Source: Diphasiastrum complanatum (taxonomy: Eukaryota > Streptophyta > Lycopodiopsida > Lycopodiales > Lycopodiaceae). Taken from it: a stretch of 64,000 nucleotides of DNA. A program made the translations under genes and the position numbers. Shown here piece after piece: positions 14,090 through 61,400 of this stretch. The notes beneath the pieces are model-generated. The model saw only the letters and a program-made list of their open reading frames with translations, was not told where the DNA came from and ran no database searches. Location: assembly GCA_029204225.1 (NCBI GenBank), contig CM055098.1:4079607-4143606 (forward strand), written 5' to 3'. Position 1 is the stretch's first letter. Each line of letters begins with the position of its first letter.

Positions 14090-15394
14090 TACTCAAGATA
14101 ACATGACATAAATCAAGCCAAGTGCAAAATTTGATCTTATATCTAGGATGGCTTTTTCCTGAATGGTCACACCTTGTGCTTTGTGTGCAGTGATAGCATA
14201 TGCTAACATTATTGGAAATGTAGATTTGTAAAATATTTTCGTATCGAATCAAATTTTTGCAAATGCAAATCTTGTTATATTGAATTTTTTTTTTTGGGTT
14301 TCAGTTTGAATGATGATTGTTGTCAATTCATGAATCTTGGAATATTTGAAGGCAGTTATGTGAGCTATGGTGCCATTGACTATACCATTTGAAATATCCA
14401 AGTTTGCAAGTACCATGACTTTTGCTCCTATAGCTAGTTTTGGAATTTGATGGAATAATGGATCATTGATCCATGTTGTTAGATTGCTTTCTAATGTAGC
14501 ATTTGTTTTAACAGAAATTTCTAGTATATCCGAGGTAGAAAACAGTTTTTGTAAGATGAGGTTTTTAAAATAAAGCACATCTTTTCTATGGGTACATATG
14601 ATAGTCATATTATGATTTGCTATATCAGGTATGCTGGACCTAGGAAGTGTACAAGTAGCTAATGTTTCATCTATTTCCAATTGTGTGGGCTTTTGGAATC
14701 TAATTTTGTTCAGGAAATGAAGGTATTCGGGATCATCAGCATGCCTAATTGAATAGGATAGTTGCAAGTGTGTTGCGATTTTCCAGAATGGAGAGTTTGA
14801 AAGATGACATATTAAACAAAGCGATTCTGATTTGTGTTTACGAATGGCTAGAAGCTGTGCATGATCACCGACTAAAAGTAAGATATAATTTTCAAATACA
14901 ATGCTAGATGGATTTTTTTTTATTTGATTTATTTGATGGATCACATATGTTAAAATTTGAGCAGTTAGCATTGAGATTTCATCTATCACAATATATTTTG
15001 CTTCAGATATTAATTTGTGTCGAAAATCGGTTGGTATCAAGTTTTTTATGTAAAGTTGATTTATTGGAATTGCGAATAAGTTGTGGACTGTAAATGCCTG
15101 TTTTGCTAATCGAAATGCAGCTGCACCTGTTGTTGTGGCTAACAAAATTGGTTGTCCTTTCTCGATACATTTGTAAGTGAGGTATCGTATCAAAAATGTT
15201 TTGCCACTTCCTGGAGTGCCTGATAAAATAAATAATTCCAAATTTGAGCTTGTAATAATTTTATATACCTTATCTTGTTCATCAGTAAGCGATGAATTTC
15301 GCATGTTTTCAAATTCAGATTCCAAGCCCAAATCATTTTTCGTATCTTCTGGCAAAGATATGGTTTGTGCATTTTTTATTGCTGAATTTGACAT
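14090..15394 (-). pseudogene. PIF1-type DNA helicase of a Helitron-like element
   Basis: This is a 5'-to-3' superfamily-1 helicase of the type fused to or carried with Helitron Rep proteins, where it unwinds DNA during rolling-circle transposition. Visible motifs in order: DEQDKVY entry, Walker A GTPGSGKT (about residue 58), Walker B VIDEIS, GDHAQL, an IRHADDPEYL region, LAIGAKVMVL and NGIVNGT. The main frame stops at 14249. Beyond that single TGA it continues in the same frame through AYAITAHKAQGVTIQ (motif VI) and then meets a second TGA where the family has SRV. Both stops fit C-to-T change of a CGA arginine codon. The gene was nearly intact until recently but is now dead as read. Confidence 0.85.
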
Positions 15395-15399
15395 TGTTA

Positions 15400-17853
15400 A
15401 TGTTTCGTTGATAAGTAGTTTTTTTGTAGAAGTATATTTGACATTTCTTGTTGTTGTTCTCTTTCAAGAAGTTGTCTATTAGCGTATTCTGCGATGTAGA
15501 TATCAATATCCTCCTCTTTCTCAACAAAATTTTGAAGTATGCACTCCAAGAAATATGAACAATCAGTATTATTTTCTCTTATTAATTCTTGTTCATTACG
15601 GAAAGATATGTTTTTGAGCAAAAAATTGAAAAAGAAGGCTTTTGTATGATGCACAGGATAATAGTCAGTAAATCTTATAAGTTTATTATTCCTATACAAG
15701 TAGTTTCCTGTCTTGTCAATGTAATCAAAAGGAGAATTTTTTTTCTACATCGTATATATTCCAGAATTTATAAAATGTTAATTTTTCTAATTCTGCAGGT
15801 CTGTATGTGTAAACATCAATTGGATGGAACATCAACGTGTTATTTCGACTCACATATCTGCATCTAAGATTTGGAGGAGAACTATCACTATAATGAACAG
15901 CTTCTCTTCTTTTTATCATAGGAATTTGCAAACAAGCAAATGTTATTTCAGATAGACTTGTTGGCTTTGTTAAGATTGACGTTGTAATTAGTTTTAACAT
16001 GTTATTGTCCATGTATTCTAGTCCTATACGTTTTGCATCTTCTATTTCCAGATTTAAGTGTCCAGATGGTTCAGACTTTATAGCATATTTTAGAATGTAA
16101 TATGACCAATTTGTGTTGCTAATCCTTTGTAAGTTCATGTGCGCTTTCCAAAGAAAAAGTATACTTGGATGATATGATACTACATTCCTACCTTCATGTC
16201 TAGGTCGATAATATATCCAATTTCTATTTTCGGAACTGAGATGGTTGGCAATGAAGATGGTTGAAATGGAAATCCATATTTGCATGGATTTGTTGTGTTG
16301 CTTTTTATTGTGCAGTTTTTTCGACAATAATGGATCTGTTTCTTAACAACCAAATTGTATAGGTTTCTATCAAATTCATCAATAGGCTCATCAAATTTGT
16401 GCAATTGGTCATTCCATTTTGTTGGAATGCATGCAATGATTTCATTTGAAATTGTTTCCACATCTTCTTCTTCAACCCAAAACATGATATGTGCATGAAC
16501 TGATCTTCTGTTTTGGATCTCATATCGAATGACATAGTGTTTGATTCTTCCTAACAAGAAGTGCTTTGAAAGCAGATACTCTTTCATGAATCTTTCCAAT
16601 CGGACAATTTCGCCAATCAAAATCCATGTTTATTTGCTGTGCAATTTTCTCTATTTTAGTGATTTCAAACCATCTCGTCTCTGAATTTTCGTCCGCAGTC
16701 AATGTTAAAAAAAATTGGGGGAGTCCCCAGTGTTCAACCATTGTTAAGAGATCTTTTAAATTGCGTCTATGCCAAGATGGTGTGTTTGGAATTTGAGTTG
16801 GTAGAGTATATTTTTAAAACATGACTGAATATTTGTTGTTCAGACGCTTTCTTATTCTTTGAGAGAAAGCTGATTATATCTTTTTGTAGCACTATTGATG
16901 GAAGGCTATTCGATATTAAAATTGCTTGCCTAATTTGGTATGACACTATTATGTAGGGCGGATATAGTGTAAACATCAAAAAGAAAGAACTTGCTCGTAG
17001 GCTAGCATAATCAACGAAGCTTATATTTCCATCATAAAAATCCATGAGCAAATGGAAATAAAAAAGGAAACAAGCTTCTTTCCAATGCTAACATGGGTTT
17101 GTCATCATGTTGACTAATATTTACAATCCCTATATGTTTTGAGTAAATTTTGTTATTGTTTTTTAGTTTTAAATTTGAATATTGATAAATATCATGATGT
17201 CGTTTGTCATTATGCTTTGATAATGGGGTTGTATCTTCTAGTAGAATATACGATTTTTGGAGGGGGTCAACAGTCATAGTTTCATATGCAACATTGCCAG
17301 GGAGAAGATGATCGATAGATTGTAGAGAAATGAAGGCTAGACTTGTCTGAAGCATTTTTCTCATACATGGTGTAAAACCTTGCAAATGATGGATTATGTT
17401 CTAAATTTTGTTTTAACAATCTTTGGAGGGACTGTCTCTTCGCAAACTCATTTTCAATATGTAGATCACATGCAATTGCGTTATCAAGCAATGATTTTGT
17501 TGTGATCCAGTCTTTCGAAAAAGATTTATATCGTATTTTGTTTCAATTGAAACATCAACGAAGGCTAGATTTTGCACTACAAAAGGCTCTAATCTCAAGA
17601 TGCTTCGTATATATTCAGGTGATTGAAATACAGTGTAGCATATTCTATATTTATTTTTTACACAAGAATTACAGACATGCCATGCTTTTTTGGATTCATT
17701 TTCATATGTATATTTCCATAAAAATGTATTGGCTATTGCATACGGAGGTATATTATCAATTTCTAATATGTTTTTTTTTTTGGAAATGTGTTGCATGGAA
17801 AAAGTTGAGCTGCCACAAGTAGAACAACAGTTCATACATTTTACTAGATTCAT
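15400..17853 (-). pseudogene. Helitron-like Rep (HUH nuclease) protein, frameshifted
   Basis: Split over about eight alternating frames, the minus strand gives: a cysteine-rich start (CMNCCSTCG...CNSC); LALERSLFPFLFPFAHG; TPSWHRRNLKDLLTMVEHWG followed by FFLTLTADE; the metal-binding HUH motif as RRSVHAHIMFW (about 16500); and WSYYILKYAIKSE (about 16100), which carries the paired tyrosines of the rolling-circle nuclease. It ends just before the helicase. Family knowledge says this protein nicks and joins DNA strands at the element ends. The wording around TPSWHRRNLKDLL differs from the Rep text I know from ordinary plant Helitrons and may belong to another Helitron lineage. At least seven frameshifts make it inactive. 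Confidence 0.8.
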
Positions 17854-18519: not shown

Positions 18520-19958
18520 TCAAAATATATAAAATGCAGGCATCATTTCGGCCATTGGTCGAAGATATTGATCTGGATGCAAGTTAAATCTCCTAAGATT
18601 ATTATCTAAATCTTGAAAATTTCTTCTCGCATGTTCGTCAGCAATATAATATTCTTTTGCGACAATATATTTGATATGCTCTGCATTAGCTGTTGCAAGG
18701 CTTTGATTCCAATCTAGATAGTGCAACTTACAAAACTCCTCACAAAATGTGATGAGTTCGGTGATCAGCCATGCCACTGACCATGTGTCTGTAGCTCTCG
18801 TGTACACATGGTTGCGATTTAGCAACTCGGGAGCTAACCACGGCCGAAGTGCATGGGTTGTCGAATTGGCCACCCAAGATTTTTTGGATTCATATTGGAC
18901 TCTTACTACCATTCCCCAATCAATAACACCAATTCTAGGATGCATTTGGTTGGTGAAATCGATCATGACATTAGCTGCATGCAAATCGCAATGTAAAAGA
19001 AATTCATTATGTGCAAATGCCATTGTTTGCACGAAAGCATGTGAGATGCCACACACATGTCACAAATTGATTTCATCTTGACCATCTCATCTAACGCTAT
19101 AATAGGATCTACTTGAGAACTCTTTATCTTACCATTTCTTTGCAACTTTGCCATGGCTCTTCTGAACGAGCCATTTTTGATTGGTAGTTTCATCATCGTA
19201 TCGTCCATGCTACCTCCATTGAAGTACGGGAAGATAGAGACCAAAGGAGGTTGTCGTGTATGTCCAATACTCCGTACAATTTTCATGTGTGCAATATCAA
19301 TACTAACTTCCTGCGCGAAGGATTTCAATCTATCTTGCCGCTCACCTTTGTATCTCTTTGCAGCAAAAACAACTTCTTCAGGGAAAAAAGATATTCCGAT
19401 GATTCCAAGTTTAAAACAGGCTCCAAATGTACCAGATCCTACTCTTTCTTTCCAAACAATTGCATCATTTGGAATTCCCACTGATAGAGTGCATTCGAAA
19501 TTCCTGACACTCGTTGCTAGTCGTGTAAAATATGTTTTCTTAAACTCTATTGATGAATTGTCTCCCACATGTGAATGGCATTGATGTTCCAATCGCATTT
19601 TTTTTGATAACACAATTTGTGACTCGATGTGTTTAGCTCTTTTATTTTTTTCTTTCTGTATTCTCCACAGCTTGTCCCAACATTCTAATTTAGTTCTATC
19701 TATCCCCAAGGGAACTTCATCTCCCAAGTCCTGAAGACATTAACTGACATTTCCAATAAAACTAGAAATATTTTCTATGACTTTTTCTTCATTGGAGTTA
19801 TATGTTTTACATGCCGCTTGAATTATTTTGTTTGTAAGTGCTCTCACACGAGCCTCATTGCAACCAACTTCTTGTAACTCAATGTTGTTGAAACCACTTA
19901 TTAATCGACAAACCGATGTACGTAAAGATTTGAGAAGGATTTTTCTTTGCTCGCCCAT
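18520..19958 (-). pseudogene. Protein kinase, full-length but with one stop and one frameshift
   Basis: A kinase of about 475 residues. Its N-terminal 70 residues (starting MGEQRKILLKSLRTS) are not recognised. Then come the glycine loop VGSGTFGACF, the lysine in VVFAAKRYKG, the catalytic loop HCDLHAANVMID (Asp and Asn present), DWG in place of DFG, APE as PWLAPELLN, and a normal helical C-lobe with DTWSVAWLI. An in-frame TAA lies at 19740-19742. A two-base TG expansion at about 19055-19060 shifts the frame just before the catalytic loop; on each side of it the frames read straight through the fold. Base composition matches the Helitron-like block. I cannot place it in a named plant kinase family. 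Confidence 0.75.
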
Positions 19959-26009: not shown

Positions 26010-26404
26010 TAGCACCCTACGCAGGCGTCAGGGTGGGCCAGGCAGGGAGGTTTTTTTTTTTTTTTTTTTAAACTGGTTGCCCTGGTGCCACGTGTCGGGC
26101 ACCAGGGTTTATCCCATAAGCAAATCTCTGAGATAAACCAGTACCTATATATAACTGAACCCACCTGCTTACTCAGATGTGTGCAGGTGGGTGTGAAGCT
26201 GCCCAGTGCCACCTGCCCGGTTCCCAGTGCCACCTGGGCCTGCCCAGCTCCACCTACCTGGCACCGGTGCCCCTGCCCGGTGCCACCCACCTGGCGCCGG
26301 TGCCCCTGCCTGGCCCCCCCTAGGCGCTGCCTGCCCCTTGGCGCGCCCGCTTGCGCCCTTTTAGCCAGCCCTTGGCTGGCACGCCCTGACGCGCTAGGGT
26401 GCTA
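26010..26404. mobile_element. GC-rich TIR element (MITE-like), 395 bp
   Basis: The ends are inverted repeats: left TAGCACCCTACGCAGGCGTC and right (as complement) TAGCACCCTAGCGCGTCAGG. Outside the first TA nothing matches, so a TA target duplication with GCACCCTA ends is possible. Inside are a long T run at 26051-26069 and five or more short 'GCC(C/T)GGTGCCACC' repeats (26195-26310). It has no coding capacity and lies about 450 bp before the glucanase start. Confidence 0.75.
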
Positions 26405-26849
26405 CAATTATGTGGAGCAAAGAATTCGAATAGGAGTGGGAGTCTGGCAGCCATGGACCCCGCCATTTCCCCGCGTCCCATTCTCTTCCTCATTCAAATT
26501 TTTGTATTCTTACTTCTTCATTTTTTGGAATTTTAGAGAAAGGATCGATCGAGCTCTCTAGTTTTGATGATGCAGCATAGAATTAATTTCGCAAATCTTT
26601 ATCTAAACTTCTCACAAGTAGAGTGTTATAGAGGTAGACTTTTCGATCAACTTTTGCAATTTGACAAGGATCACGTGATTCATTCACCGGCATGAAAGGG
26701 TACGGAAGCTAGAAAAGATACCACTACAAGGAATGAATGGTTCATATATGATATTCTGAGTATTTTTGTTACGTACGGTTCTGGAAAGGAAAGATAGAGC
26801 ACTGCTCTCAAGCCTATAATATCAGCAGGATCTTTGTTTCGCGAGTAAG

Positions 26850-29800
26850 ATGATGTGTTACGATAAAATGCAGGGTGGGCAATCTTTCAACACCATCATT
26901 TGGCTGATTTTGGTTGCCAGTGCTATTGGCTGTGGTTGTTTAAGACCAGGAGTGGAAGGTGGTGTGGGAGTGAACTGGGGAACGATGGCATCTCATCCAT
27001 TGCCTCCGCGTATTGTGGTAAACATGCTGCAGGCCAATAATATCTCAAAAGTGAAGCTCTTCGATGCGGATCCGAACGTGGTGGCCGCCTTTGCAGGCAC
27101 TAATATCGAAGTCATGATTGCAATTCCTAATGACATGCTGGATGGGATAGCTGCTAGCACGGATGCTGCGGATAGTTGGGTGCGAGATAACGTTACCCAG
27201 TACTTATTCCAAGGTGGTGTCAACATAAGGTATATGGCCGCCTCCTAACTTCTAAACTTCAATTATCAATCTGTAGCTTTTGTTACTATTTCTTTGTTCT
27301 TCATGCTAGTTGTGGTCTGTTATCAATGAGCAGGACTTGTTGATGTTCTCTTTTTGTCCAGCCAAGGTACATCTTGCTCGTCATTTCTTAGTTGATCTTG
27401 ATTGCCCGTCAAGTAGCACAGAAAGACTAGATAAATGGACGTTTGTAAGGAAAGAAACTATTCTTGTTATCAAACCAATGAGGTTAATGATGCAATTTAA
27501 GATATCTTATCTCTACCGCTTTTCACCTTTCAAGAGAACATTAGTCTCTCCGACATGGTGTGTCTTATCTTCCAAGATAAAGCACATCAAGAATATCTGT
27601 TTTAGTCGGATAAAATCAAGATTGCGGATTTCTTATACCCTCTGAAGGAATTTCGACAGTTTTCCACTTTCACGGAGGATACTCACCCAATCAAACCCTT
27701 TATTTTCTTTTCAGCACATTCTGTATAGCAGTAAGTGTTTTGTTGTGTCAGTGTAAGGCCTATATTCTGTGACCATCTCTTCCCTCTTCAAGTCGTAACG
27801 TTTTGTTCTCTTCAATCGAATTTCAATGTCAAGGTGTCTGGCCAACTCGTATCCATTTATAGTTACAGTTTCTATTAAAGTTTCCAAAGCTTTGATTCTA
27901 GAAATTGTTTCGTGTTCCAGATGCAGCAGAGTTTTGATAAGCAGGGGTGTTCTTTTGGATTTGATTTTGAAATTTATCCCTATTCTTATTTGATGTTTGA
28001 CATATTTGTTCCATTCTACAACTTCGTTTTTCTTAAACGATTGGCCTTGGAATCTTTCTCACCTGAGAGTTACAATTTTTAACTTTGTTAACCAAGGCTT
28101 TATACAGCTTCTTTTTTGTTATTGACAATCTAGGGTGACACTAAATCCAAGGTTGCCAGCTTATGTTCTCTTCCTTGGTATCTGTGACTGACAATCTAGG
28201 CTGACACTGAAACCTAGGTTTCCAGCTTATGTTTCCTTCCTCGGTATCTGATACTTGATCAAAATTGAATATCAGCAAATTTTGCACTCCTCTTTATTCC
28301 TGATTAACTATTCAAATTCTTTTGTCATTTTAGGCCAAACAATGCAGATCTGTTGTTCATTATTGTCCCACAAAATAAATTCAATATGCTTTCCTGGGTG
28401 ATGTTTGCGGAGTTGAAGAATGTGACTCTGGCTCAGAATAGCACTTAAACATTTGGAACTCGTCTGATCTAGGTTTTCTAAAGCGTTTTGACCCATGGAA
28501 GATTTAGGATGAGTTTTGGGAGATCATATATTTAAATGAATGAGCATGTAAAATCAACAAAAAAGGTAAATAAAAAAAGTCATAAACCTCCTAATCATCT
28601 CATTAGGGGCCATATTCATGAACATTGCCACATTGGACAGCCACCGACAAACATGGTCCATTAATGGATAAGACACTAAAAATGAAACATGCTTCAAAAC
28701 ACAGGATAACAAAACACTAGATAAGAAGTGTGCCTGCCATGCCCATGACTGATCTCGGATTGATTATCCCGTTAGGAGGTTAGTAGGCCTACCTCGACCC
28801 ACAATTTAATTATGATTTGGAGGGGTTTGGGGCCCTCATGTGTATACGGTCATAATTAATAGTTGGAGGCCTAAACTTATGATGGTGGACTTTTATGGGT
28901 CTATCAATGAGTCATGGGGGAACTGGATGATGTGGCTCAGTTAGGCTACGTGTCCAGTGAGGTGTCACAGTGCACTAATAGTCGTGCATGGGCCATAACG
29001 GGTATAAGTATATCCATTGGGCTCTCATTAGTGTATGCTTGATGTGGTACTGGTAGCAGAATGCTGCGGGAGTGACATCTCTCCTATTGAGCATTGATTG
29101 ATAGATCCATAGCTTGAGGGCTAGATATGATCGATCTAGGTTTGGTTGGGTTGGTTTGTCCACCATCCGTTTCCCTTTGGTTCTATGGATTTCAGCATCC
29201 TAGTCTTTGATCCTCGGAGGAGGTACTTATAGTGGTATCAGAGCCAAAGCTAGGACGAATTGTTGGATGGAAGCACACGAAAGAAAATCCAAGCATTGAG
29301 GGAGCATCATGCATGATGGGGTCCTGATTCTTGGAGAAGGGAGCAAAAGCGGGTGCAAAGACTTGTGGTTTGATTCACTTCGTTCCTTTCAATTTTACGG
29401 TTTTTTGAGAGGGTTTTTGTTGCAAGGTATGTGCATTACCTAGTTTTGCAGCAAATGATGATAACCGGGCTCTTGAAAAGTGAAATCCAAAAGTCAGTTG
29501 AATCCGTATTACAACCAAGGTTCGCAATGTTATTGGCATAGATTTTGTCAAAATTGCTTTTGCACTCTTCTTTGGCAAGACGGTTTGTTTCAGCATTTAT
29601 AGGTCCATATTGGCTGCTTTTAGGCAGTGAACCTTACATTAAATAAAGGCTGAAAATTTTGCATTTCATGAGAATAAAAGATTGCAAACTAATTTTTGAA
29701 TCCTTTTAGCTTCTGGTGTGATTGGTCAGAAAATCTTATGGTATCTACTCTTTGTTACTAGAGTACAATTCTGGACTGTTGGAATGTGTCTTCTTCCCCT

Positions 29801-30183: not shown

Positions 30184-33100
30184 CTGGCCTCTGCGGAAGA
30201 GCGTATCAGAAGGCGCCAATGACGCGAACAGAAGGTAAGCCTCACGCCAGAGGCCTGAGCGCAAACAGAAATATCTCAAACCTGAGCAAGAGCTCGGGCC
30301 CGAGCCATCTTTTAAGAGGGAAATAAAGGGGGGGGGGTGGGTAACTAGCTCTTAGCATATTGTTTTATTATTATTTTTCCCTCCAAAAATGCAATCACTT
30401 TGCAAGAATACCAGGCTTTGATCTTTCCAAATGCAGTTGTATAGTAATTTTTCTATGGAAATTTGCTTTGTCGTTTTTTTGCATTAAACTATGCAAACTG
30501 GCTAGCCGTTAAGGTAAGATGTTACTTTAAAGCATAGTTGCACAAAATCGCGTTTATGGGAGGAGACGTTTCGGAAACCGCGTTTTTGAGAAATGCGTTT
30601 CTCCTCCCAGAATCGCAAAAAAAAAAAAAAAATTTTTTTTTGGAAAAATAGCTTATGGCTGAAATTTTTTTTAGGGGATCAATGGTCAAATGAGAGTTTT
30701 GCCTCTCAGAAGTGCAGTAGATGGGGCACAAACAGATCTTATCTTCAATAGCTATTTGGTTGTTATTTGCTCTGGTTTTCAATAAATGCTCAGGGGGTTC
30801 GGGGGGCGGTAGCCCCCCGGTGGGGGGTTTGGGGGGTAACGCCCCCCAACGGCAGGGTCCGGCTCAACGGTAAGGCCTCTTCATGACTTGGCCTTCCACT
30901 CCCTGAGCGAAAACACACTTACTGGGACCATCTGTGATCGTAACAGACATGCTAGAGGTTAGTTTTGAATTTTTATCCTTGACAGAACCCAACATGGATT
31001 AATGCACCTGAACTGGACCATCCTGCACCCGAAACAGTCGGCAAATTACACAGTAATAATGCTCTTAATTAGAGCTTTCATCTGATACCCATATTGCCCC
31101 AAAAAAAAACTACTGTACTCGTAACAAGAAATTGATAACTAATGTTTGCCATAACTAATAACTAACAAATGTTTGCCATAGTATAACAAGAAACTGATAA
31201 CTAATGTTTGCCACCCAAAAGTTCCAAATCGAATTTGTTTGAAAGGATTGTAAGGCCTGATGGGCAGAACTTTTCTGAGATTTGATTTTTTGAGTGATAC
31301 GAAACTCGTGAAGTTTCCTACTAAAAGGGGGAGAAGTAGGTGGATAGGAAGTTATCTATGTGAAACATCTATTGCATAGATTCTTGGAGGAATCCGTAAT
31401 ATGTGTAGATGGGGGACCTATTTTTTAGAATCACGATTGATAGGATATTTTTGATTATATAGGAATCTCTTAAGGATTGTGGTTAAAATCTAGTTAGAAG
31501 GTGTAAGGAAAGAAAATTTAAAACATTCTTGTAGTAGATATGTTACTGATTACGAATCCGATCGATGTGTATCAGAACTAGATTTATCTATTACAATAAT
31601 GGTTTGATCCTTGTGGTTGTGATCAGCTTGATCTTAGTAAAGAACTAGGATCCGTGAGTTGATGCAAAGAATGAAATTCATTCTAACAATATATTCTTTT
31701 GGAAAAACCTCCGGTTGAGATATTGGTTACGAAATGGCACTCTTTGAGAAATATTCTCTTAGAGTTAACTGAGTTACAAGATTCTCAGTTAAAAATGTGT
31801 TTCTTACAGATTGTGTGAAATCTGTAGAGATATGCTATGTAGTGAATCTTTGTGGGATCATAAATTTTTTTGTACAAACTTTTAATCCCGTGGATCTACA
31901 AAGTGTTTCTTGCACTGAGTTTATGTGCATGCATAAACTAGTCGGTAAAATATAGGCATATTGATGAGAATTGTTGGAAGACAATTACTCATAGGTTAAA
32001 TAAAGATTTCTCGATGAGAAATACTTATTGACCTAGAATGGGATTAGAATCAGATTGAATGTGGTGTTTAAATTTGGATCCACACCTAAACATTCAAATA
32101 TTTCTAAATCAGGTACAACTAACCGAATCAGGTTACTTCTGAGTATTTGGTTTAGATTATAGAGTATATCACTCAATGATAATGTAGTTTATTGTATCAC
32201 TTATAAGTCACACCCTTTATGAGTCATTTTGGGATTCATTTAGAGGGTTTTGTGCCTAGGATACACGGGAACTTTTGGCTTTAATATTTTCTCGATTAGA
32301 AGAAGATAGAAAGAAAGGTATCCCAGAAACTCAGATGGAGTTGAATAGTTGATGTAAGCCAAAAGTTAGAACTTCTCATAAAGAAGTTCCGGTGAATCTT
32401 AAGTTATTCTAGATTTAAACTTAATAGTAATAGAATCTAGACTTATTATGGATTGGACCCTAACTTTGGAATGACACTTTATGTCGTGTCTAGAGTAGAG
32501 AAGTTTTGTGGATTGTTACATTCATTGGATATCCCAGATAAGGAATGGGATAATTTTTCCATGGATGTCGTGGTTGGGTTATCGCGGACGAATAAATAGA
32601 ATGATGCAATTTGGGTAATGGTCAACCGTCTTACCAAATTAGCTACGTTTATTTCGGTAAAGAACACCGTGAAGGCTTTTGATTTAGCTCAGATATTTGT
32701 TGAGCGGCTATTTAGGCTTTACAGATTATCGAGTGACATTGTGAGCGATCGCGATCCGAAGTTCACTAGTCACTTTTGGTCGGCCGTGTTTGCTAAACTA
32801 GAGACAACACTGAGCTTGAGTTCTTTTGATCATCTCGAGACGGATTGCTAGACGGAAAGAACAAATCAGACGATGGAACAAATGCTTCGGGCATATGTTT
32901 TCCGACTGCAATCTCATTGGGAGAAGTATATGCCCTTGATTGAGTTTGCCTATTACGGTAGTAAGAATTCGACTGCCGGTTATAGCCTGTTCAAGCTTAT
33001 GTACAGTTTTGAGCCTAGATCGCCCATAGTAGTTGAGACTCAATCGATCAAGTTTCAGAAAGTAGCAGATTTCCTGCACGACATGCAAGAAATGCTACAG

Positions 33101-33827: not shown

Positions 33828-36292
33828 AGGATTTTAGGGGCCAAACTTTTTTTTTTTGAAAAAAAATAAATATGCGTCCAGGTCCCGGACGCGCCACCTG
33901 GACGCGTCCAGCGTCCAGAAAAAAAAAATGGGACGCGTCCGAGACCCCGTGTTCGGGTGCCGGACGCGGACGCCAAAAGGCCACGTTCGCCCCGGACGCG
34001 GACGCCAAAAGGCCACGTTCGCCCCGGACCCTCATGTCTGGATTGTGTTGCTAATGTTTATATGATCATAATTAATGGTTGGAAGCCTAAACTCATGATG
34101 GTGGATTTTTATGGGTCTATCAGTGAGTCATAGGGGAATTGAATGATGTGGCCCAGTGACTTGTCCTAGTGCACTACTAGTGGTGCATGGGCCATGGAGG
34201 GTATAGTATACCCATTGGCCTCTCACTAGTGTATGCCTGATTGTCGTATTGGTAGCATGACATCCTTCCTATTAAGCATTGATTGGTAGATCCATAGCTT
34301 GGGTTCTAGATCCGATTGATCTAGGTTTGGTTGGGTTGGGTTGGTTTGTCCATCATCCGTTTCCCTTTGGTTCTATGGATTTCAGCATCCTAGTGTTTGA
34401 TCCCTTAAGTCTTGTTCTGTTTTGGGCCAAGTTAGGCCAGTGGATACATATTGAGTCTCTTATTGGGGATCCACTATTGAGTCTCTTATTGGGGACTTGA
34501 AGTCCAATATTTCTCTGTTTGAAATACAGACGCTCCAAACGTCGAGGTTTTAAAAGAGTTTCAATGCTACTCATAGTTTGGGGTAAGGTTTCACTGGTGA
34601 TAAAGTGAATATCTGCTGCATCAAAAAACATGACAAGATATCTGATACCAAACAAATAATCTCAGATTCTGTAGGTGACATCCTCCACTTTTAAGCCAAT
34701 AGAGAGTTGATAAAACTGGACTTACAGAAGTAGATAAGCTGCTTGCAGAAAATGATCTTAGTACATTGGCATTTTGATGACAAGTAAGATAAACGACAGA
34801 CAGTTTCTGATGTTGAAAGCTAATATGTTCCTGAAATTATGTATCACTGTTGATAATTTGCAGCATTAAAGTTGCTATGGCAACTAAGTTATTGAGCTTT
34901 GTACTTTTGAACGGGGGATTGATTGTGATCTCTGTAACGCTACAGTGTGTTTGATTTTTTGCCGTCAACAAATCCTGTTGCACTTGTGAGCTAGGAAGAT
35001 AACTAACAGTACTTGGAGAGTTATTGAATGCTATGCTATCAAGAAAATATGAGTTTTATTGTCACCTATGTTGTGTATGATCATTTAATGCCCTTTTGTT
35101 AACTTATATACTTATTCGATTTATAGCAATCTGATGCTTTTCTAGAAAGCTTTATATAGATGTAAAGCAATTTGAGTTTGACAGGTATGTTGCAGTAGGA
35201 AACGAACCATTTTTGAAAGCTTATAATGGTACATTTCAAAATGTCACCGTGCCAGCGCTTGAAAACATTCAGAATTCACTACTCAATGCAAATTTGGGAG
35301 GCCAAGTCAAGGCTATAGTACCTCTCAATGCTGATGTTTTGAGTGACGGAAATTCTCAACTTCCATCGGCAGGCACGTTCAGAGGGGATATTCAACCAAT
35401 AATGAAAGATCTACTCTCGCTCTTGGACAAAAACCAGGCCCCTTTCACTGTTAATATCTATCCTTATCTGAGTTTGCAGCAGAACCCTAACTTTCCTAAA
35501 GACTATGCTTTTTTTGACGGTGCTGCAAATCCTATCATGGATGGATCACATGTATATACCAATGTTTTTGATGCGAATTATGACCTGCTTGTGTCTGCAC
35601 TGATTGGAATCGGCTTTCCTAATATGTCTATAATCGTTGGAGAAGTAGGCTGGCCAACTGATGGAGAAATGAGTGCAAACATTCTAAGTGCACAAAAGTT
35701 CAACCAAGAGCTTCTGAAGCATGTACTGAGCAACATTGGCACACCGTTGCGTCCTGGGTTACCTTTGGAAGTCTATCTCTTTGCCCTTATAGATGAAGAT
35801 CAGAAAAGTATCGCACCAGGAAATTTTGAACGTCACTGGGGCATATTCACATTTGATGGGCAATCCAAATATCCCCTGGATCTTACAGGCCAAGGGCAAA
35901 ATGGTTCTCTCTTGAAAGCATCTGACGTCAAATACTTGCCATTCAGGTGGTGTGTTCTTAATCCAGATGGGGATATGTCCAAATTGGCAGAGAATGTTGC
36001 TTATGCCTGTACTTATGCAGACTGTACTGCTTTGACATATGGAAGCTCCTGCAATTCAATTGGTGGTCCAGGTAATGCATCTTATGCTTTCAATAGCTAC
36101 TATCAATTGACCAACCAAAATGCAGATAGTTGCTATTTTGAAGGATTAGGTATGGTGACCACTGCAGATCCATCAACAGACAGCTGTAAGTTTATGATAG
36201 AGATTGCTCTTTCCTCAGGACTCCGCGGGCCTTCTGCAAGTTTGTTGATGCCTTTTGCTGGATTGATTGCACTATTTTTTTTTTCGTTCTAA
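26850..36292 (+). CDS. GH17 glucan endo-1,3-beta-glucosidase with X8 domain and GPI signal
   Basis: The enzyme cleaves beta-1,3-glucan (callose) at the cell surface, plasmodesmata or wall. The exons are 26850-27229 and 35185-36292, with donor AAG|GTATAT and acceptor TTGACAG|G. They join inside an Arg codon to give 495 residues, a normal length. A hydrophobic signal peptide (TIIWLILVASAIGCG) follows the Met at 26868, which may be the true start, six residues after the first ATG. GVGVNWGTMASHPLPP opens the GH17 barrel. The acid/base is Glu134 in VAVGNEPF and the nucleophile is Glu280 in VGEVGWPTDG. An X8/CBM43 module occupies about 381-462 (RWCVLNP, AYACTYADCTAL, YGSSCN) with its cysteines present. 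The last 18 residues are hydrophobic, as in GPI-anchored members. No defect is seen. The closest family is the plant clade resembling Arabidopsis At4g31140 and At5g58090. Confidence 0.95.
28830..29232 (+). repeat. Left LTR of the intronic element
   Basis: It shares with 34060-34410 the phrases 'ctaaactcatgatggtgga', 'ttttatgggtctatca', 'gatccatagcttg' and 'tccgtttccctttggttcta', in order. Confidence 0.75.
29233..29245 (+). promoter_or_regulatory. Primer-binding site (initiator-Met tRNA)
   Basis: TGGTATCAGAGCC lies immediately after the left LTR. It is the standard minus-strand priming site of plant LTR elements. Confidence 0.85.
30144..30180 (+). repeat. (CT)n microsatellite, about 18 units
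   Basis: A pure dinucleotide run inside the glucanase intron. Open frames across it on both strands are artefacts. Confidence 0.95.
30533..30620. mobile_element. Word-rich hAT-like insert (partial?)
   Basis: It begins CATAGTTGCACAAAATCGCG, the same kind of end as the element at 59580-59792. It holds repeated 'gcgttt' words and an imperfect foldback (GGGAGGAGA at 30558 against TCTCCTCCC at 30600). An A/T homopolymer patch follows at 30617-30640. I could not find the other end or a target duplication. Confidence 0.5.
30790..30870. repeat. G/C-block inverted repeat with quadruplex potential
   Basis: Six-base G blocks alternate with C blocks (ggggggcggtagcccccc, then ggggggtttggggggtaacg followed by a C block). 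They can fold as hairpins or as a G-quadruplex. Confidence 0.8.
32500..33240 (+). pseudogene. Ty3/gypsy integrase fragment
   Basis: It reads NFSMDVVVGLSRT, AIWVMVNRLTKLATFI, SSDIVSDRDPKFTSHFW, SSFDHLETD, a stop where the family has GQ-ERT, then TNQTMEQMLRAYVF and WEKYMPLIEFAYYGS. This is the integrase core in order. The catalytic Asp in VSDRDPKF is present, but stops and substitutions (HLETD for HPQTD) make it inactive. Confidence 0.9.
33222..33247. repeat. Perfect 12-bp palindrome with 2-base centre
   Basis: TGTAATGCTTAC-AG-GTAAGCATTACA, just downstream of the integrase remnant. Confidence 0.9.
33275..33832 (+). repeat. Telomere-like (CCCTAAA) words and CT microsatellites
   Basis: Short CCCTAAA repeats are at 33283-33300, 33403-33420 and 33684-33700, among (CT)n runs at 33530-33582, 33615-33650 and 33770-33822. 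Plant telomeres are TTTAGGG, so these could be interstitial telomere scraps or chance low-complexity sequence. Confidence 0.7.
33960..34029. repeat. 32-bp GC-rich tandem repeat, two units
   Basis: Units starting CCGGACGCGGACGCCAAAAG lie at 33960 and 33992, identical by eye, with a partial third. They are preceded by several 'ggacgcgtcc' words (33890-33945). Confidence 0.9.
34060..34410 (+). repeat. Right LTR of the intronic element
   Basis: A diverged copy of 28830-29232 with several small deletions. Its end at 'agtgtttgatcc' matches the left LTR shortly before the primer site. Confidence 0.75.
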
Positions 36293-36814
36293 ATAATGGT
36301 TTATTCTGTTCCGATGCAAGTGGACCGGTTTATTCATTTCCAAGTATCCTTTTTAAGGAATAAGGTTATTGCATAAACTTGGCAAACCAAGCTTGTTCTT
36401 AAGCAGCCAATTTTGGTGGTATTGGACAACCATTCTTTAATAGAAGTGAGGACCTTGACCCCAGGAACCTGAGATTCCGTGGGAAAAGAGAGCATAAAAC
36501 TTAATGAGCAAATCACATTTTTGCTATGATTGCACGTACTATCAGGTTTATAGGCCACATATAGAAGCTTCAATGGTGGTACACTAGTAGCTGGCAAGTA
36601 GCGAAAACTTGAAGACCATTTCATAGAGACTTCCATTGGCAATAAGGAAATTTTGCGGCTTACTTTTAATCTTCTACTCATACAAAATATCTTTGTGAAG
36701 TACTCTTGTCCAGGATATGCACAATTTGTTGATTTGAGCATCTTATTGTTGGGTTTATTAGAAGTAAACAGCTACATAACACTTCAAAAACCTTTATGGT
36801 AGTTTAGAGTGCGA
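36293..36814. other. Glucanase 3' flank
   Basis: Presumed 3' untranslated region followed by intergenic sequence. A 135-codon frame on the minus strand (36334-36741) is open but matches nothing I recognise. It lies antisense to the probable 3' UTR. Confidence 0.5.
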
Positions 36815-36822
36815 CTGGGGGC

Positions 36823-37218
36823 CATAGAATCTGAGAACCGTGTACAATTCACCACGGTTCTCAGAACCGTACAGTGAACCGTACGGTTTACAAAAAATTC
36901 AAGGGTTCCCACCCCCAAAAATTCAAGGGTTCCCACCCCCAAAAACAGCCCAAAAATATGCAAAAGAGGGCCAAAAAAAATCAGAATTGCTAGGGAGTTT
37001 AATTATTTTTTTGGGGGAGGACCATAGCATTTGTGAAATGAGGACCAAACATGAGGAATCTGTGAAATCTGAGGACCATTTGTGAAATCTGTGAAATGTG
37101 GACCAAAAATGCCTTGGGAGGGGTTTTGAGGGGAATTTTGTAATTAATTAATTAATTAGATATAGGAACCGTGCTACGGTTCCCAGGACCCACGGTTCTA
37201 AGAATCGTGGGTTCTATG
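36823..37218. mobile_element. hAT-like MITE with 'ggttct/accgt' words, 396 bp
   Basis: The ends are CATAGAATCTGAGAACCGTG on the left and CATAGAACCCACGATTCTTA on the right (complement). Flanks ctgggggc and ctggcggc match at 7 of 8 positions, as expected for a slightly decayed 8-bp target duplication. Both ends are filled with AACCGT/ACGGTT words. Inside is a 23-bp tandem duplication (36893-36940, 'aattcaagggttcccaccc') and an (ATTA)n patch. Confidence 0.75.
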
Positions 37219-37226
37219 CTGGCGGC

Positions 37227-38480
37227 ATACAATAGACAGACTAGTTGCCAGCATAAAACTTTCTGAGATTTGTTTGGTTGATTTCTGAAGGGCTATATTC
37301 ACATAATTGTCCTGTTTTTGCCCACGGGTTTGTTAGGGTCAAGGACTCACATTGATGCAGTCATGAAAGATGGAATTTTCATAAACATGTTTTTGATCTT
37401 GATTGCTTATATTTTTGCTGTAAAATAATGTGAAGACAAAAGTAACATCCCTTTGATGGGTCATCATTCAGATTGTAAAAAGCTATGAAGGTACAAGTCC
37501 TTATTGTAATTTGGTTATCTTTCATTTTTGAATTAGATAGATTTGCTGTACTTAACAAAAAGGAAGCAAATCGATAATAGAAAGATGTCTATATCATAGA
37601 TGCATTGTGTTCCGGAATGTAGAATTCCGATCACGTTCCGTTTTGGATTCTTTTGTTTTTTGGGTTGGGGGAGGGGGGGGGGGGAGGGTTTCTTTCTAAA
37701 TTTTTGTAGATGTCTCAAAAAAAAAAAAAGCCTAGAAAGTTAACAAAGATTATTTTCCTTATTCCCCTGTACATATACCTTCTCCGTTTTCCCCCTTGCA
37801 ACTCAACTTTGTTGCCCAAATTTTCCTAACTTTTTGCCACACCTTTTTTTTCCCTTCTTGTTTGTACGTCTTTTTTCCCCCCTCTTTCACCACGGTTTCA
37901 CATCCACGCACGCCAACGCCAACAACATACGCATGTGCCAAGGGAATGTCACCAAAATAGCAGTGGGGGCATGTTAGAAAATTCTGGTGAAGATTCTTCT
38001 AACAGATGATTGCAGATTACAAGATGTTTGTGTGAGCTATGAGGGGACTGTATCATTCAATTCGAATATGGAGGAATCAAAACTCAGAAAGAGGATTTTC
38101 CCATTGCTCCACTGACAACACATTCAAAAGTTAAAGAGAGTGCATAAATTTTGTCAAATGAGCTAGCAGGGAAAGCCGGTTTCTCCTCATCGAGTTGGTA
38201 TGAAGAAAGTTCAATCTTTGATCTTATAACAAATGTCAAAAGTGCCCAATGAATATCGCATGTTATACAGCCAAAAAGGAGTTCCAGAATCTAGATTCAC
38301 CGGGAAAGCCAATATCAGAAAGTCGAGCCAACAAGCGAAGACAAAGCCCAGCGTCTCCCCAACAGATTTTACGACAACGGAAATAAACGCATGGCCGAGT
38401 CGACATACAAGTTAGATTTATCAGTAATATGATGTCAGACACCCTTAAATGGTGCACTACTGTACTCGTAAGCCAAAGGC
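37227..38480. other. Intergenic, no gene seen
   Basis: 37595 starts another CATAGATGC end followed by 'ttccggaa' words (37595-37650), then G and A homopolymers at 37667-37725. No coding sequence is supported. Confidence 0.45.
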
Positions 38481-50018: not shown

Positions 50019-50026
50019 TTAAGAAC

Positions 50027-50804
50027 CACAGTTGCCCGTTCCGGAACAGAACGCATTCCATTCCGGAACTTCACCAAAAAAAATTTCAAAAAATACGTTC
50101 CTTTTTAACAAAGGAAACGAAATAAGGAACAAAATAGTGATTCTAGGATCAACGTGAGGCTCAGATAGAGATTCTAGGATCAATGTGAGCTGCAAGAATT
50201 TCATTCGCTTTTGCCAGATTTTTTGGCTATAAGCAGCTCTCTATCAGCGGTCAAGACAAGATATGCATTATCTAGCGTCAGACACGACATGGACATTGAG
50301 ATAGAGAGTGAGTTTTCAAATATAGCATTAAATTTCATGCATAACCGAGATATGGAACGCAATGCAGAAAAAAAGGGCCAGTCATCTGAATATGTGCACA
50401 GCACAGTGACAAACTAGCACAGCAGCCACAAACCCATAAAAAAAGTATACGCAAATGGGTATGTCAGAGACAAAGGACGTGACAGTAACCGATATGGTCG
50501 TGGTGGTCCATTGCGGTCCAAGGGAAACTATAGAGATCGAGCTCATCCTTATGATCGCCCCAGTGCTGGCCGTGGAGGTTGCTCATCTTATGATCGCAAC
50601 TAATTATTGTCAAATAGCTAGTAACTTCTTCAATTTTGTTTCTGCTTGAATTGTATGTTTTGCAGTGTATCTAGACTCTGTCATCGTATTATCAAGAAGG
50701 AAGATCGCGGCCAGTTTAACACCCCTGTTTTTTAATTTCTTTTAAAACGTTCCGACCCAGTACGTTTCAGAACGTACCCAAAAGGTTCGGAACGGGTTTC
50801 TCAG
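50027..50804. mobile_element. hAT-like element with 'cgttcc' words and captured exon, 778 bp
   Basis: The ends are CACAGTTGCCCGTTCCGGAA and, as complement on the right, CTGAGAAACCCGTTCCGAAC. The flanking 8-mer TTAAGAAC is present on both sides (50019-50026 and 50805-50812), a perfect 8-bp target duplication as made by hAT transposases. Both ends carry CGTTCC/GGAACG words. A direct pair 'gattctaggatcaa.gtgag' is at 50142 and 50171. The middle holds an RG-rich coding-like stretch. Confidence 0.85.
50455..50604 (+). pseudogene. RG-rich protein C-terminus captured in the hAT-like element
   Basis: The frame beginning NGYVRDKGRDSNRYGRGG and ending AGRGGCSSYDRN, then stop, is about 48 codons rich in Arg, Gly, Asp and Tyr. 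This composition is typical of the tails of plant RNA-binding proteins, and the codons avoid low-complexity DNA. It is not possible to name the donor gene. Being inside a short TIR element with a target duplication, it is best read as a transduplicated gene piece. Confidence 0.5.
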
Positions 50805-50812
50805 TTAAGAAC

Positions 50813-58400: not shown

Positions 58401-61400
58401 AACAAATCAAACAATGGAATTGCGTTCCACCAATTTCTCTCCCATGATGCGTACCTACGTATCTTATAGGATTAAAAATGCTCATTGGTATCCAAATTCT
58501 AAATAGGAAATCAAATGTATGACAAGGAATAAATGACTTAATACTTTTTCTCTCCCTATTCACAAAAATAAGATCCAAAATGCTTAGCACTTGTCCCATG
58601 GACCCCCCAATATGAGTTGGGCCTCTCCAAAACTTGAGTACATGGACCAAAAGTTAAAAAATGCTCCTTGGGTCCTCAAAACCATATATTAACATTGCCC
58701 CAACTTCATTAAATATGGCATTAGCCCCATGAAGTCGTCACGCAATCCAAGCCTGGAGAAAGCTCTGTAGTCACCATACTATCTCTGGAGAAGATTCCAC
58801 CCAGGGAGAAATCTGATGACCCCTAACAGCCGTCTAGGGCTGGTACCTCGACTTCGCAGTCAGAACATCAACAGAGGAATCTCCATTAAAGGACAAATAG
58901 GACAAATGGTGACTTCTAACATTAAGGAATCTTAAATACTTTACTTGCCCTTAGGATGAGCTGTATCTGTTCTATCTAGGGTGCAACCTTCGTAGACATT
59001 TGCCGTATCAAGATCCTTCAAAACTCAATAGATTCCTGCAGCTCTCTTCTTGGGTCCAAATCTCTCTAAGATGTGGTTAAAGTACATCATGCTGATTTAC
59101 ATATATAGAATCACAGCTATCTTCATCTACATTCATCACAATTATAAACACAAATTTTCATGATGCTACTACCTTAACTCTATATTGGAGATGAGAGGAT
59201 CGTTTGGCAACTCTCTCTCTCCTCGCAACATGCCTTCATTTAAAACTAAATACATGCTGATAAAATTTTTGTTGCTCATCTGCATGCCATCATTGACCTA
59301 GCTAGTACAATGTTAAAACCTACCAGCATATTTGAGTCTTCGATGCCTTGCACCGAGGACTTATTGCATTAGAATTGAGCTCTAGTTCTATGGAACATAC
59401 CTTTGGTTGGTGGGCTTCAGAAAACTTGGACTTTGGGCACCACTTTGTTTCAAAAGAACCTTACCTCACAATTCGCCCTTGTAAATTTATGCATTGGCAA
59501 CCGTGTCTTTCATAACAAGAGTTACAAATTGAACATTGTTTAACTAATATTTATTTGCAATCGTTTTGTCTTAACAAATCAAAGATGCACTGCTGAATCA
59601 CGGACAGTGATCTGAATCATGGACAGCGATTCGGACAGCAATCCAAATCGTGACCCTTGATTCGTTGGGGGGTCGCGATTCACGATTCGCGGTAAATATA
59701 TATTTTTTCAACTAAAAGAATGGCAATTCTGGTTCGCAGAATTGCGATTCGCGAATCGCAATTCCAGTGAATTGCGATTTGCAGCATCTATGTAACAAAT
59801 AAAATGCCAATGAAAACTGGAAATGATAACCAACTCAGTGGAATTCACATTGTCCATTTCTCATTGACACGAGGCCAGTAAATACTCCCCTGCTGAGTAG
59901 TAAGAACATACAAACTTTGGTCATTGGCAAGTCATTTGTTGCTCCTTCAAATGGCAGGTTGTTATGGCCATTGGCAAACACAGGGATACTAGTGACTCGT
60001 TAGACCCTAGGGGGTCCCGGCGGGGTGACACTCAGCCCCATAGTTCGGGATAATAACTCTTAGGGACTAGGATCTAGTGGGCTTGGTCTATATTCATAGG
60101 GAGTGCCACTAAGTGAAGGGCACCCTTAGTTGCTAAGGGTGGGTCCCTAAAGTTAGGTAGAGGACCTGTGTGCATCCACATGCACAGTGGCAACTGTGCA
60201 TGTGAGAGGAGTGCATGGCCTCTTGGAGGCTGGGCGCTGGTCCTATATGGTGGCCTGTGAATGTAGAGCCAGGTACAGGATAGTGGGTGGAAATCCATAG
60301 TCACTCTTCATCTTTGGTTGGTTCTCTTTCCATTGCTCCTAATACAGGTCACCAACAGGTTTTGAAGGATTATCTCTCTTGTTTGCCAACCTTTCATGAT
60401 TGTGCCTTTAAGAAGAGTTGAAGGAAGTCAAGGGTGAATTCTTCATGATTTTTGAGAACTTTGCTCCCTTCGCCAAGGAGGCATCTTCATGCCTACTCAG
60501 CTATTCCTTAAGAAGTCTTGGGATCCTCCTTTCTCCCCTGCTATTGAAGTCAAGGGTGGAATTCTTCCTCCATGATTTGAGGACCTTGCTCCCTTCGCCC
60601 AGGAGGCATCTTTGCGCCTACTCAACTTTTCTTTACAAGTCTTGGGATGCTCCTTTCTCCCCTACCATTGTGTTGCCTGATCTTTCTTTGATTCTATAGC
60701 GGCTAGTAAGTTCTTCCTGAAAATTAGGTTGTTAGGCTGCGTGAGCCGAGTTTTGAGATCCTACCCCCAGTCTCCTGGCCACCCACCAAATGTGTGATTG
60801 CCCCCCAAGAAACTGGTACCGAGGGATGATACACACTATTCAACATTCTTTTGTATGGAGTCCATTTTAAGTACTCCATACGTATATGACACTTACGAGG
60901 CCTTCCGCCTCGACGTGGCAGGTTCGATTTAGACCTTCAACATTGACCCTTAGCGAGCACAAGCATATGAATTATGCTCCCTTTCAAAGTGACTGATTAA
61001 GGATTGCAGAAGGGCTGGCTCCAATACCATGTTGGAGATCAGGTCGTTGGGCTTTGTGGATCGAGTATTCTAGCCTCCTAGCCACGTGCCAGTTTGAGAA
61101 CTCACCAAAATACTGGGACTAGAAGACAACACACTTATTCAATACCTTATATGTAGTCCATTCTAGGTGCTCCATTTCCTTATGGGACTTATGAAGCCTT
61201 TGGCCTCCATGTGGCAGGTGCACTGCTACAACTTCAATAGCTCCTTGCTAGTAAATCGCTAATTTGAAACTTGTAAGATGCTGAAACAATACCTTCTTGT
61301 TGACATCTGGTGCAACTCCTATGAACCTACAAAATCCTTGTAAAATTTTGTTGGGCCAGCAAACAATATGCATGCCTGTGCTCTTTTGGACCGATGAACT

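Follow-up and report, generated by a model that had tools for sequence, protein, structure and literature searches.

Do the short hAT-like elements at this locus share their tips while the words repeated beside the tips differ from element to element, and if so, what has changed? The locus lies in a 64,000-nucleotide stretch of DNA (the window; C7:4079607-4143606), and we searched the assembly that contains it (1,744,706,496 bases in 5,176 contigs). The window comes from the nuclear genome of a plant: it contains matches to GH17 and X8, at 26820-27248 and 35135-36292, that we take to be exons of a single gene, along with pieces of LTR retrotransposons and a Helitron remnant. The remnant (14249-16629, minus strand) encodes a PIF1 helicase (PF05970), and its match to Helitron_like_N falls just under the cut-off. 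Two overlapping minus-strand frames at 18520-19739 match protein kinases; one is above the cut-off for Pkinase (PF00069) and the other is under the cut-off for PK_Tyr_Ser-Thr. Compared to Rfam, the window had no match at the gathering score.

Short hAT elements in the window

Five elements in the window, A through E, fit short non-autonomous hAT transposons, with D and E represented by their left ends only (Table 1).

Table 1. Elements A to E and their parts, in window positions.
Feature	Position	Strand	Description
Element A, non-autonomous hAT, 213 bp	59580..59792	.	tips CAAAGATGC / CATAGATGC; spacer-T words GAATCG/CGATTC, 5/5
A, left target-site duplication TAACAAAT	59572..59579	+	exact
A, right target-site duplication TAACAAAT	59793..59800	+	exact
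A, 26-bp perfect palindrome GAATTGCGATTCGCGAATCGCAATTC	59739..59764	.	inverted words
Element B, 778 bp	50027..50804	.	tips CACAGTTGC / CTGAGAAAC; GAACG at both ends, spacer absent at 6/8 sites
B, left target-site duplication TTAAGAAC	50019..50026	+	exact
B, right target-site duplication TTAAGAAC	50805..50812	+	exact
B, 61-codon RGG-rich open frame with terminal stop	50418..50603	+	
Element C, 396 bp	36823..37218	.	tips CATAGAATC / CATAGAACC; spacer-C words GAACCG at 7/8 sites
C, left flank CTGGGGGC	36815..36822	+	7/8 vs. right flank
C, right flank CTGGCGGC	37219..37226	+	7/8 vs. left flank
Element D, left end, tip CATAGTTGC	30533..30625	+	spacer-A words mostly; T at +16 and innermost sites
D, interior Y	30633..30790	+	90-93% over ~150 bp with L024, L066, L068-L072
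Interior X, further along D	30999..31098	-	92% identity to L023 over 100 bp
Left end of element E, with tip CATAGATGC	37595..37650	+	B-type words CGGAAC/GTTCCG

The original prediction was that A and B have exact 8-bp duplications and C a 7/8 duplication, that the ends of these elements are alike, and that the tips stay fixed while the words inside them change. The exact duplications of A and B hold up. An exact 8-bp duplication with CnnAG at both tips occurs 3 times in the window, compared to 0.35 times per shuffle (21 in 60 shuffles); the third case, at 36622-37073, looks like chance. If one mismatch is allowed, the window has 7 such cases and the shuffles average 8.9. Since the window is no richer than the shuffles, the 7/8 duplication of C is not significant alone, and the case for C is its tip match (11/17, equalled by 7 of 268 shuffle hits) together with its words.

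The ends of A and C are indeed similar (the tips of C are of the type CATAGAA(T/C)C), but the right tip of B is a poor match, with only bases 9-17 (CCCGTTCCG) matching in register. Also, the tip CATAGATGC that was ascribed to A is at its right end only; the left tip is CAAAGATGC. We dropped tips alone as evidence because they are too weak: exact CAYAGWTGC occurs 6 times in the window, compared to 2.3 expected (4 of 100 shuffles had as many), and with one mismatch it occurs 54 times, compared to 48.9 expected. As for the words, repeated 6-mers in A and C exceed all 500 shuffles. They are weaker for the right end of B and for D (9 and 14 of 500 shuffles, respectively, were as high), and not significant for the left end of B (100/500), all of B (82/500), or E (81/500). 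The starts of D and E had been proposed as relatives of the other elements. Both have a tip and words, but the search for their right ends gave only chance-like matches within 6 kb.

The assignment to hAT, which was also proposed originally, is supported by 8-bp duplications, tips, subterminal repeats, and two elements in the same genome that encode hAT transposases (see below). Judged against the general hAT tip consensus, the tips are of the hAT type, and A, like the genome copies that we compared, has a tip resembling CATAG[AT]TGC at each end. The duplication is exact in A, B, L003, L005x, L012, L015, L022, L030m/L031m, L066, L059, and L062, and 7/8 in C, L004, L011, L021, and L023; none was called in L019. 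We also considered the CACTA superfamily, but the tips are other than CACTA and the duplications are of 8 bp, not 3 bp.

The RGG-rich frame inside B is possibly the captured 3' end of a host gene; its last 54 residues have no match in Pfam. In D, a GC-rich block with runs of G and C (GGGGGGCGGTAGCCCCCC) lies between Y and X (30793-30880).

A common word with an element-specific spacer

Each element was originally thought to have its own, different word. As stated, this does not hold: CGGAAC/GTTCCG is common to B and E, AATCGC is common to A and D, and in A-D most of the words prove to be forms of GAA(N)CG. The form is GAATCG in A (5/5), GAACCG in C (7/8), GAACG without a spacer in B (6/8), and GAAACG in D (2/3). 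E has one GAACG and otherwise B's word CGGAAC. Across the window, 21 of 25 sites carry the commonest spacer form of their own element, and none of 100,000 permutations was as high.

When 601 patterns of this shape were compared, GAA(N)CG alone combined clusters in 6 of 7 end regions with zero clusters elsewhere in the 64 kb. The end regions were taken from the elements named earlier, which makes both this test and the tally of word forms by element post hoc in part. Because the pattern was found in the same data, we also relabelled the letters within each element. A word common to A-D arose in 25 of 13,824 combinations, or in 3 of 64 if C and G were swapped only with each other (identity included in both). 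In 40 kb adjoining the window, we found no further element of this kind, and GAA(N)CG was clustered twice, with three sites and no tips each time. So, clusters of GAA(N)CG alone are not diagnostic.

To map the sites, we relaxed the word to [AG]AA-N-[CT]G and counted positions from the tip. Five positions recur: +16, -21, -37, +46, and -51. In 14 elements (26 ends), 36 of the 89 sites are at these five positions, compared to at most 22 on the best five in 5,000 random placements, although the elements are related and their ends are not independent; the commonest single position (9 ends) equals the maximum of the random placements. At least three of the five positions are occupied in 7 ends, from 7 of the 14 elements. 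The spacer at these ends is T in A, L012, L023, and L066, A in L005x, A plus one C in L030m, and mixed in D. The map stays where the spacer differs. No end of B, E, L003, L015, L021, or L022 has three map positions, and C shares only +16. The elements that share the map do so because they are related.

Relatives that align but differ at the spacer

We used A as a query against the genome and scored 40 of 165 candidates, including A itself and its duplicate. The duplicate is an identical copy in a segmental duplication on another long contig (L001; C8:33173851-33177063; 97.7% over 2,304 bp). All 40 scored matches had E below 1e-9, and the family is alignable. We called a boundary with a duplication in 15 of 28 A-like loci and none in the other 13; 6 of the 15 have poor tips (L008, L013, L014, L016, L020, and L028). 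The duplications are exact in L003, L012, L015, and L022, and 7/8 in L004 and L011. Relatives with good boundaries have tips like CATAGATGC and alignable interiors. GAATCG or its decayed form GAATTG prevails, with GAACCG or GAAACG once each in 3 of the 28 loci; the query itself has spacer T, which favors a one-word outcome, and our samples, besides being small, over-represent spacer T. Its relatives make A a member of an ordinary MITE family in which one word prevails. The original prediction had set its idea against one ordinary MITE family with alignable interiors, and for its headline element this is what we found.

The family of A raises the possibility that these are all ordinary, separate hAT MITE families, each with its own subterminal repeat, and that the tips are alike because hAT tips are conserved. 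B and E, with their other words and no site map, fit this as well, and differing subterminal motifs are established in hAT elements: AAACGG in Ac and AAG(T/C) in Hermes, according to the parts of PMC3260210 and PMC10368747 that deal with these motifs. But A-D have one site pattern, and a single map extends across A and two further lineages, X and Y, in which homologous interiors lie beneath different words. Given these lineages, we consider separate families to be quite improbable.

A scan for duplications with tips covered 243,250 bases (the fetched loci plus the window) and gave 27 distinct cases, compared to 3 to 17 hits in five shuffles; it misses B and C, whose tips are under its threshold. 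A tip score of at least 16 was reached by 13 cases. All of these except L054, which lacks GAA(N)CG sites, have three or more of them, and among these 12, only L005x and L030m/L031m were not recruited by their match to A. L005x (338 bp, exact duplication) has spacer A at 8 of 9 sites. L030m (302 bp, exact duplication) has mixed spacers, with A the commonest (5/11), and L031m is also mixed (commonest spacer 7/13). Over their full length, L005x and L030m can be aligned with L023, which is 363 bp long with a 7/8 duplication and has spacer T at 13 of 14 sites, and with L019 (361 bp); the tips of these elements are similar.

X thus comprises four loci and a near duplicate; L031 was omitted from the groups as a near duplicate of L030. 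Comparing the two spacer-T elements with the two spacer-A elements, we found that fixed differences occupy 7 of the 13 spacer columns, as against 2 of 65 columns elsewhere in the words and 17 of the 177 that remain. The excess in spacer columns is significant by Fisher's test (p = 2e-5 vs. other word columns and 2e-4 vs. the rest), although columns of related elements are not independent. As read from the alignment table, all seven fixed spacer differences set T against A. Columns 66 and 309 keep their spacer.

The second lineage is defined by interior Y of D, which D shares with ten fetched loci (three of them only partially). In L024, L066, and L068-L072, the words are mostly spacer T. Compared to the majority of nine Y relatives, D has another spacer base at 6 of 8 end sites (T to A at five and T to C at one); a ninth site in D is a chance match in the interior and was excluded. 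D retains T at +16 and at the innermost site. Interior columns differ at 12 of 146, and the rest of the end differs too (15 of 52 columns). The majority row was made without L024, whose end aligned with gaps, and the nine relatives include two near-identical pairs (L064/L067 and L068/L069) of which both members were kept. The relatives were recruited by a spacer-T query, and the spacer-A side of Y is D alone. So the idea of fixed tips with changing words is supported by the X elements, which align yet differ at their spacers, and by D as compared to its relatives, but not by the family of A, with its one prevailing word.

What might have changed the spacers? We think it probable that the arrays bind a transposase and that the base which sets their specificity changed piecemeal, at existing sites. 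The ends of the small elements carry arrays of GAA(N)CG, in which inverted pairs are frequent; many elements have these sites at set distances from the 9-bp tip. A DUF659-type hAT transposase, acting in trans, most likely grips the array via an N-terminal zinc finger; it would cut at the tip, and insertion would leave the 8-bp duplication. We infer that GAA(N)CG is the transposase's site and that N is part of the specificity, or recognition code, with most copies in most elements sharing the same N. Related lineages would have switched N in place, one site after another, and kept their site positions, tips, and interior; the states of N are T vs. A in two lineages, C in element C, and none in B. 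A change in the transposase's specificity may have driven the switch, and the pairing of any given transposase with the elements that it moves is putative in the same way.

Another explanation is that an element lineage exchanged its ends for those of another family, through recombination or gene conversion, with the whole set of words arriving at once. The interior of D differs at 12 of 146 columns, compared to 27 of 106 columns in three end classes (including six columns from the interior chance site), as would be expected from an exchange. Also, spacer-T and spacer-A ends have the same site map, so a swapped end would look in register. However, the switched sites in D are bracketed by unswitched ones, with T at +16 and at the innermost position, while at this end both spacer-A elements of X carry A at +16. 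The spacers of L030m also form a mosaic, and such a patchwork could come from patchy conversion but not from a single exchange. Because switched and unswitched sites are mixed in D and L030m, piecemeal co-evolution of protein and sites fits better than one exchange of ends, and we regard end exchange as unlikely.

A third alternative needs no change in the transposase: inverted words could copy onto each other by hairpin or template-switch conversion, so that a mutation in one word spreads by neutral homogenization. The words do form perfect palindromes, of 26 bp in A, 12 bp in C, and 10 bp in B. Among palindromes made up of three or more letters, the window has none longer than the one in A (GAATTGCGATTCGCGAATCGCAATTC), and because of its inverted words, A as single-stranded DNA folds far better than 200 shuffles (z = -6.1). 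On the other hand, the positions of the words are fixed, both of the distant ends of the X elements change together, and the sequence between words is not homogenized (as judged by eye). Homogenization therefore strikes us as very improbable.

If the change in place did occur, it matters because a joint change in the specificity of a transposase and its many sites is hard to explain: a change in the protein would strand every copy. Alignable copies that differ at one base of a conserved site make such a change testable, by binding assays and by dating the copies. If the change in place is real, hAT MITEs could also be grouped by transposase according to their spacer base. A bolder proposal is that several mutually incompatible hAT recognition systems operate on one site grid, with the repeated base (T, A, C, or none) as an address that chooses the transposase, and that lineages switch this base at most sites of both ends while the rest remains homologous. 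We offer this tentatively and have more doubt than confidence in it.

Transposases, related systems, and other repeats

The original prediction also called for a hAT transposase gene with the same tips as the small elements. A search with PF05699 (Dimer_Tnp_hAT) gave 4,364 first-look candidates; we scored 150 of these, and all 150 passed the cut-off. Both ends were recovered for two of five longer transposase stretches, and both encode DUF659 and Dimer_Tnp_hAT. L059 is 3,226 bp long, with an exact duplication (AGACCCCT), an open frame of 566 codons, and the tips CATGGTTGC / CAAGATTGC. L062 is 3,134 bp long, with an exact duplication (CTCTGAGC), 586 codons, and the tips CATGGTTGC / CAGAGTTGC. 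So hAT transposase genes are present, but their tips are similar, not identical, to those of the small elements, and in the five longer stretches examined, no transposase element with the exact tip CATAG[AT]TGC was found.

Upstream in both L059 and L062 is a frame with a finger-like stretch (CxxC...H...C), which we read from its residues as BED-like. In Pfam, the frame from L059 has only a zf-WIZ match that is under the cut-off, and the frame from L062 has none. The commonest words in the two elements are AAACGT, CAAACG, TTCAAA, and GTTTGA. GAA(N)CG is present, though not foremost, and its spacer is A at 6 of 6 and 2 of 3 sites, respectively.

The other three stretches were less complete. We rejected the tip in L060 as an end of its transposase element, as it marks the end of another element, 301 bp long and flanked by an exact duplication of its own. 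In L061, the right end was found and the left end was not. We dropped the apparent end in L063, where the left end was not found and the CTCATC repeats look like acidic codons.

Ac/Ds of maize is similar to these elements in its 8-bp duplications and short tips. As set out in part of PMC3260210, it also has subterminal AAACGG hexamers that bind the transposase cooperatively, and its non-autonomous elements share little beyond the tips and some hexamers. Here, the site is GAA(N)CG, and its spacer depends on the element; AAACGG occurs 12 times in the window, with one in E and none in A-D. In Hermes, BED zinc fingers bind short subterminal repeats, AAG(T/C); a quasi-palindromic pair is bound cooperatively, and the two ends are arranged differently (from the portions of PMC10368747 on the repeats). 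The short subterminal repeats are alike, but the motifs differ, and binding is known for Hermes while the sites here are putative. Those portions of the Hermes paper describe no switch between lineages (PMC10368747).

The closest parallels for the turnover of motifs are in other superfamilies.

VANDAL elements are MULE-type transposons. For VANDAL21 and VANC21 of Arabidopsis, excerpts of PMC5735166 describe arrays of a short motif with C-type and T-type forms that are one base apart between related elements; the motif units diverge together, and coevolution of protein and motif was proposed. VANC21 is an anti-silencing protein, and its motifs are in one orientation and spread by tandem repeats, whereas here they often form inverted pairs near hAT tips. 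In the CACTA element Jozin of Chenopodium, the CACTA tips are kept while a subterminal 12-bp motif has three forms across four species (summary portions of PMC8978399). Jozin has 3-bp duplications and was compared between species, unlike the alignable copies within one genome here. Our literature search, which covered titles and the openings of abstracts, found no in-place spacer switch in hAT ends. Going by these sources, related motif turnover is already published for CACTA and VANDAL elements.

The window also contains two GC-rich blocks with repeated words of other kinds, neither of which has a convincing duplication. Another element with terminal inverted repeats lies at 26013-26406, with ends CACCCTACGCAGGCGTCAGGG / CACCCTAGCGCGTCAGGG and an interior filled with GC-rich words such as GGCACCGGTGCC; we found no duplication of 7-9 bp around it, with up to one mismatch allowed. 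A block at 33870-34040 is dense in GGACGC/GCGTCC and contains a 14-bp palindrome (CTGGACGCGTCCAG). This block is possibly another repeat family with its own word, and similar words adjoin the A-like match in L028.
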